Below, in pieces: positions 4,199-9,222 of a DNA stretch of 9,598 bases. Position 1 is the stretch's first letter. Every line of letters starts with the position of its first letter. The stretch is taken from contig JAITLF010000271.1 of NCBI GenBank assembly GCA_031278025.1, positions 1 to 9,598 of the forward strand. The letters are read 5' to 3'. This DNA comes from Treponema sp. (lineage in GTDB: Bacteria > Spirochaetota > Spirochaetia > Treponematales > Breznakiellaceae). The notes under the pieces are model-generated. The model was not told where the DNA came from, did no database searches, and saw nothing but the letters and a program-made list of their open reading frames with translations. The translations under genes and the position numbers were made by a program.

Positions 4199-4228
4199 TT
4201 GATAGCATTCCGCTGTTACTGGTATCCT
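4199..4228 (+). promoter_or_regulatory. Promoter for the Rpn-type gene
   Basis: TTGATA (4199-4204), an 18-bp spacer ending in TGG, and TATCCT (4223-4228) form an extended -10 promoter. Transcription would begin near 4235, only about 13 nt before the ATG at 4248, so the full-length product would have a very short leader with no SD. Confidence 0.5.
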
Positions 4229-4247: not shown

Positions 4248-5087
4248 ATGAATCAGCAAACGAACCCTCCCCGCATCCCCTGGCATCCCGCCTTTGTTAC
4301 GGCGCTCAAGCTGGAACTGGAACCCTACAGGGATAAACTCGAATTTATAGCGGAATACCAGCTTACCGCTGAGCCTTTGAAAATAGACGTGCTTATTATC
4401 AAAAAATCCCCGGAAATAATTATCGAAAGAAATATAGCCCGGATATTCAAAGGGGTTAATATACTGGAATACAAAAGCCCGGATGATTATTTCTCCGTGT
4501 ATGACTTCTATAAGGTCTTGAGCTACTCGTATCTGTATGCATCGCTGAACAAGATTTTCCTGGGAAACATGACCGTTACACTTATAGAAACCCACTATCC
4601 CCGGGAACTGTTAAAATACTTTGAAGGGAACAAGAAAAAGGTAAAGGAAACATCTCAAGGGATTTACGGCATCCGGGGGTATTCTCTTACTATCCAGATT
4701 ATAGTAAGCAGGGAGTTGCCGATAGCCGAGAACCTGTGGCTCAAAGGGCTTAGGAAAGACTTGAGTGAGGAATTGGCGGGGGTTATACTGAAGGAAAGCG
4801 GGAAGATTAGGGAGAAAGGGGAGATAGGAGCGTATTTATACGCCATAATAAGTGCGAACCGGGAGACGGTAAGGGAGGTACTAAAGATGAGTGAAGAGAG
4901 AGCGGCATTTGATAGCCTGATGGAAGAAATCGGATTAGCCGCCAAATGGGAACAAGCCGGAGAAGCCAGAGGCGAGGCCAGAGGCGAGGCCAGAGGTGAA
5001 AAAAAGGGTTTAAAAAAAGCCATAGGCTTATTGAAACAAGGGTACACGGTGGAGCAACTCGAACAGATGACGCTTTCATGTGAGTAA
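4248..5087 (+). CDS. Rpn-like PD-(D/E)XK nuclease with intragenic C-terminal product
   Basis: A 279-residue protein with the signature of a PD-(D/E)XK nuclease: Asp47 in KIDVLII, then E74-Y-K76 in ILEYKSP, followed by the helix SVYDFYKVLSYSYLYASL typical of Rpn/transposase_31-like nucleases. The C-terminal third is helical and highly charged, with three EARG tetrapeptides (239-250) followed by a Lys-rich segment and a short terminal helix (GYTVEQLEQM). The ATG at 4248 is the first possible start after the in-frame stop at 4203; no SD precedes it. In contrast, an in-frame ATG at 4887 (Met214) has a perfect SD. The gene is visibly AT-richer than pfp and hemW, consistent with acquisition by transfer. 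In E. coli, Rpn proteins are DNA endonucleases acting in phage defence, inhibited by a separately translated C-terminal domain. Nuclease assignment is firm; equivalence to Rpn is an inference from architecture. Confidence 0.8.
   Translation: MNQQTNPPRIPWHPAFVTALKLELEPYRDKLEFIAEYQLTAEPLKIDVLIIKKSPEIIIERNIARIFKGVNILEYKSPDDYFSVYDFYKVLSYSYLYASLNKIFLGNMTVTLIETHYPRELLKYFEGNKKKVKETSQGIYGIRGYSLTIQIIVSRELPIAENLWLKGLRKDLSEELAGVILKESGKIREKGEIGAYLYAIISANRETVREVLKMSEERAAFDSLMEEIGLAAKWEQAGEARGEARGEARGEKKGLKKAIGLLKQGYTVEQLEQMTLSCE
4874..4879 (+). promoter_or_regulatory. Internal Shine-Dalgarno for the short Rpn product
   Basis: GGAGGT within AAGGGAGGTA, 7 nt before the in-frame ATG at 4887. Six of six core bases match the anti-SD. 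Confidence 0.65.
4887..5087 (+). CDS. Putative internal antitoxin-like short protein (RpnS-like), 66 aa
   Basis: Nested in frame inside the nuclease gene. The ATG at 4887 is preceded by GGAGGT (4874-4879) at a 7-nt spacing, the best SD in this gene and far better than anything before the full-length start. The product would be the C-terminal 66 residues (MSEERAAFDSLMEE... to the shared stop at 5085-5087), entirely helical in appearance, including the three EARG repeats and no nuclease residues. In E. coli Rpn systems the separately translated C-terminal domain (RpnS) dimerises with and blocks the toxic long form, and a helix of variable four-residue repeats sits at that interface. Independent translation here is predicted, not shown. 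Confidence 0.6.
   Translation: MSEERAAFDSLMEEIGLAAKWEQAGEARGEARGEARGEKKGLKKAIGLLKQGYTVEQLEQMTLSCE
4962..4997 (+). repeat. 12-bp tandem repeat, three units, encoding EARG
   Basis: GARGCCAGAGGY repeated three times in frame at codons 239-250 of the nuclease. The unit is 12 bp, so copy-number change alters the helix by four residues without a frameshift. Confidence 0.92.
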
Positions 5088-5314
5088 AAAGATTTTACAC
5101 TACTATTACGGGGCAGAGAATTGATTAAATCCAACTGAGGCTGTTCCAAAAACTGAAGTTTTGGAACAGCCTCAATTGGAACAGCCTCAGATAGAAAATA
5201 GATTTAGATCTGGAAATAGTATATGAAAAGCCATACAAAAAATAAAATTATTGCGTAAATGCTCCAATAACGGAGCGTTGTGTGCCTCCCCGGTGAGCCG
5301 GTAAAATAACGGCA
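5088..5314. other. Intergenic spacer between the Rpn-type gene and hemW
   Basis: This 227-bp spacer contains the inverted repeat listed separately, then AT-rich sequence (about 5190-5260) and a small GCTCC/GGAGC hairpin (5261-5265 with 5272-5276). I cannot pick a confident hemW promoter, and there is no good SD before the hemW ATG. Confidence 0.5.
5136..5189. repeat. Perfect 16-bp inverted repeat plus an extra direct copy
   Basis: The arm 5136-5151 (TGAGGCTGTTCCAAAA) and the arm 5159-5174 (TTTTGGAACAGCCTCA) are perfectly complementary around a 7-nt loop. A second copy of the right arm (TTGGAACAGCCTCA) follows at 5176-5189, 15 bp after the first, so the left arm can pair with either. The same 15-mer GTTTTGGAACAGCCT occurs again at 9168-9182. 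The hairpin lies 48 bp after the Rpn stop and could serve as its terminator, but the repetition elsewhere suggests a dispersed REP/MITE-like element. Confidence 0.85.
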
Positions 5315-6466
5315 ATGGAAGCCTCCCTCTACCTTCACATACCCTTCTGTGCCGGCTCTTGCGACTACTGCGACTTTTACTCCCTTCCGGTCCGTCCGGA
5401 CGGACCCGGGCTGGATGCCGGGCTTGATGCCGGGCTGGATGCCTTTGTGGGCATCCTCCTGGCTGATGTCCGGGACAGCCTGGCCCGTTTCGCCGTAGAC
5501 CGGGTTCCCTCCCTGTATGTAGGCGGCGGTACCCCTTCGGTTCTGGGCGCTGTTCGCGCAGCGCGCCTCCTTGCCGGCCTCCGGGCCCTCCTTCCCGCAT
5601 GGCCGGAAGAGGTTACCCTGGAGGCCAACCCCGAATCCGCGGACGGGGCGTTCCTCCGCGCCTGCCGGGAGGGCGGGGTAAGCCGCATAAGCCTGGGGGT
5701 ACAGACCTTTCACGAGCCTTCCCGCCGCATGGTTCACCGGGTAGGAGAGGGGAGCCTGCTTCCGGAACGCCTCTCCCTGGTTTCCGCCCTGTTTCCCGGC
5801 GCTTTTTCCGCAGACCTTATATCGGGACTTCCCGGCCAGGACGAACAGGCCCTGATGCGGGACATCGAAACCCTCCTGGCCTTTAACCCCGCCCATGTGT
5901 CCCTCTATGCACTAACCGCCGATCCTAAGTTGCCGGGCAGCCCCCCTGACGACGAGGCGGACCGGCTTTGGCTCCAGGGCAGGGACGCCCTGGAAGAGGC
6001 GGGCTATGCTCAATATGAAGTGTCCAACTTCTCCCGTCCGGGCAAACGTTCCCGGCACAACATCCGCTATTGGCGTATGGAAAACTGGCTGGGCATAGGC
6101 CCCGCCGCGTCGGGAACCGTCATAGACGACCGTACCGGCAGGGGCCGGCGGTATACCGTCAAGGCGGACGCGGGCGCATATAACACGCCGGCGTTTTCGA
6201 AGCGTAACGGCGGCGTAACGGTTGAATTTTTGGACCGGCTTACCCTCATCAAGGAAACCGTTCTGATGGGGTTCCGGTATATCGAAGGCCCGGACCGGGA
6301 ACGCTTTAGAATCCGGTTTGGGGCGGAGCTGGAAACAGTTATCCCCCGGACCCTGGAACGCTGGCGGAAACGGGGCTTGCTGGACGGCGAAAAGACCGCG
6401 CTAAACCGTAACGGACTATTGCTGCTCAACCGCTTTCTGCTGGAGGTTTTTGAGGAACTGGAGTGA
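5315..6466 (+). CDS. hemW: HemW-like radical SAM haem chaperone
   Basis: A 383-residue cytoplasmic radical SAM protein. The [4Fe-4S] motif CAGSCDYCDF (C-x3-C-x2-C, near residue 12) is followed by Phe where HemN carries a fourth Cys, which favours HemW (haem chaperone) over coproporphyrinogen dehydrogenase. Further family motifs are YVGGGTPSVL, LEANPES, ISLGVQTFHE, DLISGLPGQ, HVSLYALT, YEVSNFSRPGKRSRHNIRYW and LGIGPAASG, followed by a HemW-type winged C-terminal domain (from about residue 300). A three-unit GLDA repeat (residues 32-43) lies just after the cluster loop. The ATG at 5315 is the likely start because the cluster motif follows at the expected distance, but its SD is weak. Convergent with the helicase; 36 bp separate the stops. 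HemW should load haem onto target enzymes, but no haem pathway genes are nearby. Confidence 0.92.
   Translation: MEASLYLHIPFCAGSCDYCDFYSLPVRPDGPGLDAGLDAGLDAFVGILLADVRDSLARFAVDRVPSLYVGGGTPSVLGAVRAARLLAGLRALLPAWPEEVTLEANPESADGAFLRACREGGVSRISLGVQTFHEPSRRMVHRVGEGSLLPERLSLVSALFPGAFSADLISGLPGQDEQALMRDIETLLAFNPAHVSLYALTADPKLPGSPPDDEADRLWLQGRDALEEAGYAQYEVSNFSRPGKRSRHNIRYWRMENWLGIGPAASGTVIDDRTGRGRRYTVKADAGAYNTPAFSKRNGGVTVEFLDRLTLIKETVLMGFRYIEGPDRERFRIRFGAELETVIPRTLERWRKRGLLDGEKTALNRNGLLLLNRFLLEVFEELE
5408..5443 (+). repeat. 12-bp tandem repeat, three units, encoding GLDA in hemW
   Basis: GGGCTKGATGCC repeated three times in frame after the radical SAM loop. Only one base differs (CTT versus CTG in unit 2). 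It has the same unit length and copy number as the repeat in the Rpn-type gene, with a different sequence. Confidence 0.92.
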
Positions 6467-9167: not shown

Positions 9168-9182
9168 GTTTTGGAACAGCCT
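9168..9182. repeat. Dispersed 15-mer GTTTTGGAACAGCCT, second locus
   Basis: Identical over 15 bases to 5158-5172. Here it stands alone, without its inverted partner, between the helicase upstream region and the hairpins that follow the right-edge gene. Confidence 0.8.
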
Positions 9183-9222
9183 GGCGGGGCTCCGCCCGCA
9201 CCTCGCGGGGCAGAGCCCCGCG
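9183..9222 (-). terminator. GC-rich hairpin pair downstream of the right-edge gene
   Basis: CGCGGGGC (9204-9211) and GCCCCGCG (9215-9222) form a perfect 8-bp stem with a 3-nt loop. A second stem, GGCGG (9183-9187) with CCGCC (9192-9196), follows. Both lie just past the stop of the - strand gene. The nearest A/T tract is in the adjoining 15-mer, which reads AGGCTGTTCCAAAA on the - strand, so this is not a canonical intrinsic terminator. Confidence 0.5.

Follow-up and report, generated by a model that had tools for sequence, protein, structure and literature searches.

Whether one gene can give rise both to a toxic nuclease and to the small protein that restrains it is the question raised by a long open reading frame (ORF; 4248 to 5087, forward strand, 279 amino acids) in a 9,598-nucleotide stretch of Treponema DNA, here called the window. 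The frame is predicted to encode a nuclease toxin together with its own C-terminal inhibitor module. The original prediction, made from the sequence of the window, described such a gene-within-gene arrangement, and its coordinates are correct: a Shine-Dalgarno (SD) motif, GGAGGT (4874 to 4879, forward strand), is separated by a 7-nt spacer from an in-frame ATG at 4887, from which a short ORF (4887 to 5087, forward strand) starting at Met214 would yield the C-terminal 66 residues, a predicted RpnS-like antitoxin. Among the 24 in-frame ATG, GTG, TTG and CTG codons of the gene, Met214 alone is preceded by an SD match of more than 4 nt. The full-length ATG lacks an SD, as had been noted, with a match of 3 nt at most. 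A leader of about 13 nt had also been proposed for the long form; a promoter-like match at 4199 to 4228 (forward strand, 9/12, with TG before the second hexamer) agrees with it, and this match is itself weak and not clearly above chance because the scan returned five such matches against 2.3 expected. Another weak match, likewise 9/12 and not clearly above chance, is located within the gene about 100 nt 5ʹ of the internal ATG (4761 to 4789, forward strand). Internal transcription starts are reported in E. coli rpn genes in PMC10327210.

The family to which the gene belongs is wider than the spirochaete family first supposed, also including planctomycetes and firmicutes. At E<=0.001, 1904 proteins match the window protein (the best 120 of these being listed), some perhaps through repeats only. 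Within genome contigs, 76 loci were found in Treponema and other spirochaetes, Planctomycetes, Lachnospiraceae, Oscillospiraceae, Synergistaceae, Thermoanaerobacterium and others, and 92 of the 195 genomes in the family of genome G001 carry a match, with up to 13 matches per genome.

Conservation of the internal start was assessed in 157 ORFs, the window gene included, retained from 272 open frames at 230 loci. Frames were dropped for being shorter than 230 amino acids (49), duplicated (38), without a stop within the locus (24), without the E-x-K motif (4) or interrupted by an N (1); the counts of E74 and K76 in this set are fixed by the E-x-K selection and were not used. A methionine occupies column 214 in 152/157 ORFs, while the other five have GTG (L158), an ATG displaced by one or two codons (L226, L159 and L196) or a broken frame (L062). 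The original prediction had proposed looking in homologues for an internal SD and ATG that are conserved among codons otherwise free to vary, and such conservation is found at the nucleotide level. With L062, L159 and L196 left out because no start lies within one codon of the aligned position, 151 of 154 genes have an internal SD of at least 5 nt, against a mean of 60.3 and a maximum of 80 in 500 within-gene synonymous shuffles. The excess persists at greater divergence: 119/122 against 48.9 shuffled (maximum 63) below 80% identity, and 83/86 against 35.5 (maximum 50) below 60% identity. In a set of 125 representatives, none of the 277 columns is preceded by an SD of 5 nt or more as often as column 214, where 121 genes have one (the median column scores 6.4%). 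The signal is present in Firmicute loci, as assigned from record titles (21/22), and in other loci (98/100), and GGAGG lies 8 nt 5ʹ of the internal start in 95/122 representatives. Compared with the best candidate full-length start, the internal SD is stronger in 83 of 101 genes, equal in 6 and weaker in 12; a further 21 of the 125 representatives had no candidate full-length start. Six of the 125 fail, three having no SD of at least 5 nt and three no start within one codon (two with an ATG two codons off, one frame-broken). On the evidence of these alignments, the internal start is selected at the level of the RNA or nucleotide sequence.

In some relatives (L062, L065, L068, L071 and L074), the frame is interrupted within the nuclease half or beyond it, and a tail-like piece is still open in another frame. 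The break is similar in L065 and L071, which come from two assemblies. These relatives would fit survival of the antitoxin, or an assembly error.

Could the protein alone account for this signal? E210 and M214 are nearly invariant, and a conserved helix glutamate and methionine might by chance spell an SD and an ATG. This is the least probable of the readings weighed here and is already contradicted by codon choice. Glu210 is encoded by GAG in 108/112 cases, against 46.1 expected (sd 5.1). In a control comparison, GAG was used at the Glu210 column in 116/121 genes, whereas in the same genes its share was 33% at Glu23, 45% at Glu36 and 47% at Glu74, the catalytic Glu74 being GAG in only 59/125. 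Moreover, where Glu210 is GAG, the preceding codon ends in G in 107/108 representatives, against 60.7 expected (sd 4.5) when Met and Trp codons are counted as forced, even though ten different residues occur there, including E, K, R, Q, L, M, A, W, S and G. The shuffles, which never exceeded 80 of 154 genes, and the replacement of ATG by GTG in L158 likewise speak against a constraint on the protein only. Intragenic SD-like stretches have also been proposed to slow ribosomes, and the internal SD might accordingly be a pause site that aids folding of the nuclease before the tail is made. This is very improbable, as a pause would explain neither a start codon held at fixed spacing nor the GTG replacement, nor the existence of stand-alone copies that begin at Met214 (described below).

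The N-terminal half of the window protein is predicted to adopt a PD-(D/E)XK nuclease fold (residues 5 to 168 approximately; 4260 to 4751, forward strand). It was modelled by AlphaFold2 with a mean pLDDT of 87.7, and its best structural matches, over approximately residues 6 to 168, are EndoMS/NucS, McrC, Can2 and FokI; adenosylhomocysteinase entries in the Foldseek list were set aside as unrelated. The core residues named in the original prediction, D47, E74 and K76, stand. In 88 aligned proteins, D47 (4386 to 4388, forward strand), a predicted metal-binding aspartate, is invariant, and within the predicted catalytic E-x-K, E74-Y75-K76 (4467 to 4475, forward strand), K76 is invariant and E74 is present in at least 90%. 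A prediction lacking this fold had been named as grounds for rejecting the idea, and the fold is present in the model. By sequence, the window protein matched no Pfam or NCBIfam family at E<=10, received no name from PADLOC and, as a whole protein or whole profile, retrieved nothing relevant from the PDB. Relatives also matched FliH, RNase Y and SMC, chiefly through their helical C-terminal region, and these matches were disregarded. Among the open-licence papers listed by literature searches on Rpn, no title or abstract describes the E-x-K family.

The likeness first seen between the C-terminal module and the Rpn inhibitor is borne out by profile comparison. The C-terminal family profile A4 matches the E. 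coli antitoxin RpnA-S (7TH0) with an i-Evalue of 2e-5 over 40/49 residues, and the part of the profile that aligns contains the C-terminal end of the window protein, the KKGLKKAIGLLKQGYTVEQLEQM region (residues 252 to 275; 5001 to 5072, forward strand). 7TH0 is short, at 49 residues, and the repeat proteins 8vd6 and 8v3b, apparently designed, outscore it as whole chains by summing repeats. At E<=0.01, the Rpn model TIGR01784 matches 26/54 C-terminal pieces, and the piece from the window gene is not one of them. DUF4351 matches 5/88 full-length relatives at E<=1 (best 2.3e-8) and none of the 54 C-terminal pieces at E<=0.01. Modelled alone, the C-terminal piece gave three helices in a poor model (pLDDT 62.4, pTM 0.30).

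The tail also occurs by itself. At seven of the 230 loci (L002, L112, L132, L216, L025, L027 and L032; L112 and L132 from one genome), a separate ORF equivalent to that from the internal Met lies 12 to 103 nt after the parent gene. The parent at L032 has no tail of its own; at the six loci with a full parent, parent and stand-alone copy differ in repeat number or sequence. The SD of the stand-alone copies is 6 nt long in four and only 3 to 4 nt in three (L002, L112 and L132). In all, 21 short C-terminal frames were found, some being the same place twice, and C-terminal matches at contig ends (L211 to L215) were not counted as stand-alone copies. A tail-like frame of 119 residues beside another relative (L110:730-1086) is a possible eighth copy. 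Stand-alone short-form copies are described for E. coli rpnC and rpnE in PMC10327210.

Within the short form, the three tandem EARG units originally noticed are a 12-nt repeat encoding residues 239 to 250 (4962 to 4997, forward strand), inside a long C-terminal helix (residues 230 to 263 of the model); Tandem Repeats Finder (TRF) reports a 12-nt repeat at 4965 to 4996 with 2.7 copies and 100% matches. Copy number was expected to vary among relatives, and it does so in steps of four residues: the length of the repeat linker, which ranges from 14 to 74 residues, is 2 modulo 4 in 115 of 116 measurable proteins, the lone exception (P0076) having been misanchored by the script. These were drawn from 278 proteins (121 from the database and 157 ORFs, with possible overlap), in 162 of which the two anchors around the repeats could not both be located. 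A G-x3-G-x3-G pattern occurs in 71/122 C-terminal pieces against 4/122 N-terminal parts and a mean of 5.7 (maximum 12) in shuffled pieces. Elsewhere in the window, an unrelated radical-SAM gene (5315 to 6466) contains another four-residue repeat, encoded by a 12-bp unit, CCGGGCTGGATG, present in 3.2 copies at 5406 to 5443.

Taken together, these observations suggest that one gene probably makes two proteins in the manner of Rpn, a toxic nuclease and an internally started C-terminal inhibitor, the short form being most likely a separate small protein that checks the nuclease. The roles of the long form as toxin, of the short form as inhibitor and of the repeat helix in pairing are assigned because of the analogy with the Rpn systems of PMC10327210, which reports growth inhibition, DNA cleavage, a crystal structure and phage tests. 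The full-length product, a predicted PD-(D/E)XK nuclease with an E-x-K core, would be toxic to its own cell. The strong internal ribosome-binding site would allow the C-terminal 66 residues to be made alone, and this short protein, whose repeat helix and tail are those found at the C-terminus of the long form, would pair with the long form there. Such pairing would hold the nuclease in an inactive state, as RpnL is held by RpnS; compatibility between short and long forms may depend on how many four-residue units they have, and the system would probably serve in anti-phage defence. Translation of the short form, its excess, toxicity, inhibition, specificity of the repeat set and a role in defence are thus what we infer.

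A different use of the same start can be envisaged, in which the short protein, rather than inhibiting the long form, serves it as a required subunit (the relation of Cas11d to Cas10d), as a chaperone or as an aid to oligomerisation. All results on conservation of the internal start fit any use of that start, and PMC10327210 gives Cas10d/Cas11d as a case of complementary function. Nevertheless, this reading is rather unlikely: the tail resembles RpnA-S, which is a demonstrated inhibitor according to that paper, and repeat variation in steps of four, together with stand-alone copies, matches the Rpn pattern. A mobile or DNA-uptake nuclease (a "putative transposase") with a meaningless tail would agree with the several copies per genome, which reach 13 matches. 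Such a view is at odds with the start of the tail, where SD conservation is higher than at any other of the 277 columns, and transposition is argued against for Rpn in PMC10327210; this explanation is slightly less probable even than a ribosome pause.

Although the proposed mechanism is Rpn-like, the original designation of the protein as an Rpn-type nuclease does not hold by sequence, the nuclease half being matched neither by Rpn models nor by 13 classical treponemal Rpn proteins. These 13 (alignment A3) came from related genomes, on the forward strand only, and were picked by an E-x-Q filter, so the invariance of E-x-Q in A3 is a product of selection; PF12784 matches all 13. For the window family, neither PF12784 nor PF04754 was among the 25 families listed, of 85, in searches with 88 relatives. 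TIGR01784 matches 18/88 relatives at E<=1 (best 1.7e-11); among 10 relatives scanned singly, three match it, below the cut-off, at model positions 195 to 273 of 273 only. Comparison of whole profiles gave the same picture, with the window family and classical Rpn aligning over the last 37 columns only (E 5.5e-7, probability 92%) and no alignment of their N-terminal halves (hhalign probability 0.5%). Likewise, 76/154 C-terminal pieces match the 13 classical proteins at E<=1e-3, whereas the best BLASTP E for the N-terminal parts is only 0.018. The contrast drawn earlier between E-x-K and E-x-Q cores is upheld in 30 classical frames collected with no motif filter (loci L231 to L260): 28 align at the core, with Q in 28 and E in 27, so that E-x-Q is present in 27 of the 28. 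Because the nuclease half fails the Rpn models, the window gene is not an Rpn by its nuclease, and the system would work like Rpn with a different nuclease half. With this correction, and that on the breadth of the family, the original interpretation is right for the most part.

By raw count, 29/30 classical treponemal frames have an internal ATG preceded by an SD of 5 nt or more: in 16 it stands at the aligned position, and in 13 of the remaining 14 it lies elsewhere, 41 to 130 codons before the end. The C-terminal ends shared between classical and E-x-K proteins reach, for example, 71% identity over 38 amino acids and 65% over 46. Both common descent and exchange between the two families would fit these shared tails. 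In a single genome (G006), the E-x-K genes L083, L101 and L186 share 82, 125 and 42 nt near the 3ʹ end with the classical Rpn gene L255, at 85%, 80% and 90% identity, respectively, an observation suggestive of exchange between two gene families. There is perhaps an even chance that an RpnS-type antitoxin with its internal start forms a portable cassette attached to two or more nuclease lineages (E-x-Q Rpn and E-x-K) whose catalytic halves cannot be aligned, and that 3ʹ ends still recombine within one genome, reshuffling the specificity of immunity. Conservation by itself rarely suffices to argue for a gene within a gene; in this family, the start signal is kept in several phyla while the preceding amino acid varies. 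Should the mechanism prove correct, intragenic antitoxins would reach beyond the Rpn nucleases to a second family, one without a Pfam or NCBIfam model, and may be swapped between toxins.

The neighbours of the long ORF in the window are housekeeping-like genes by Pfam. A 21-bp tandem array (1869 to 2269, 19.1 copies, 90% matches, consensus CCCGCGACGCGCGGAGACAAG) sits between a FAD-binding gene and a phosphofructokinase-type gene and is crossed by open frames on both strands. An inverted repeat with 22-nt arms (5130 to 5195) contains TTTTGGAACAGCCTC, which recurs with one mismatch at 9169 to 9183; this sequence has four matches in the window against 0.04 expected, and it is found exactly in 1 of 260 loci. 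The inverted repeat is possibly a dispersed palindromic element.

The nucleases EndoMS/NucS, McrC, Can2 and Cap4 share approximately 9 to 14% identity with the window family and differ in their other domains; we know of no internal antitoxin in any of them. Classical treponemal Rpn proteins have an internal ATG with an SD and C-terminal ends in common with the window family, although the N-terminal domains cannot be aligned. The Rpn systems of E. coli and C. difficile (RpnL/RpnS; COG5464, TIGR01784, PF12784 and PF04754) differ in that the window nuclease half is unrecognised by Rpn models or by the classical Rpn profile, and its core is E-x-K rather than E-x-Q. The repeat run begins a median of 23 residues after the internal Met in the window family, compared with 8 to 20 in Rpn in PMC10327210. 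Like these Rpn systems, the window family has a PD-(D/E)XK fold, here predicted, and an internal SD and ATG for a C-terminal piece, here a conserved sequence signal, as well as a variable helix of four-residue repeats, an RpnA-S-like tail and stand-alone copies of the short form.
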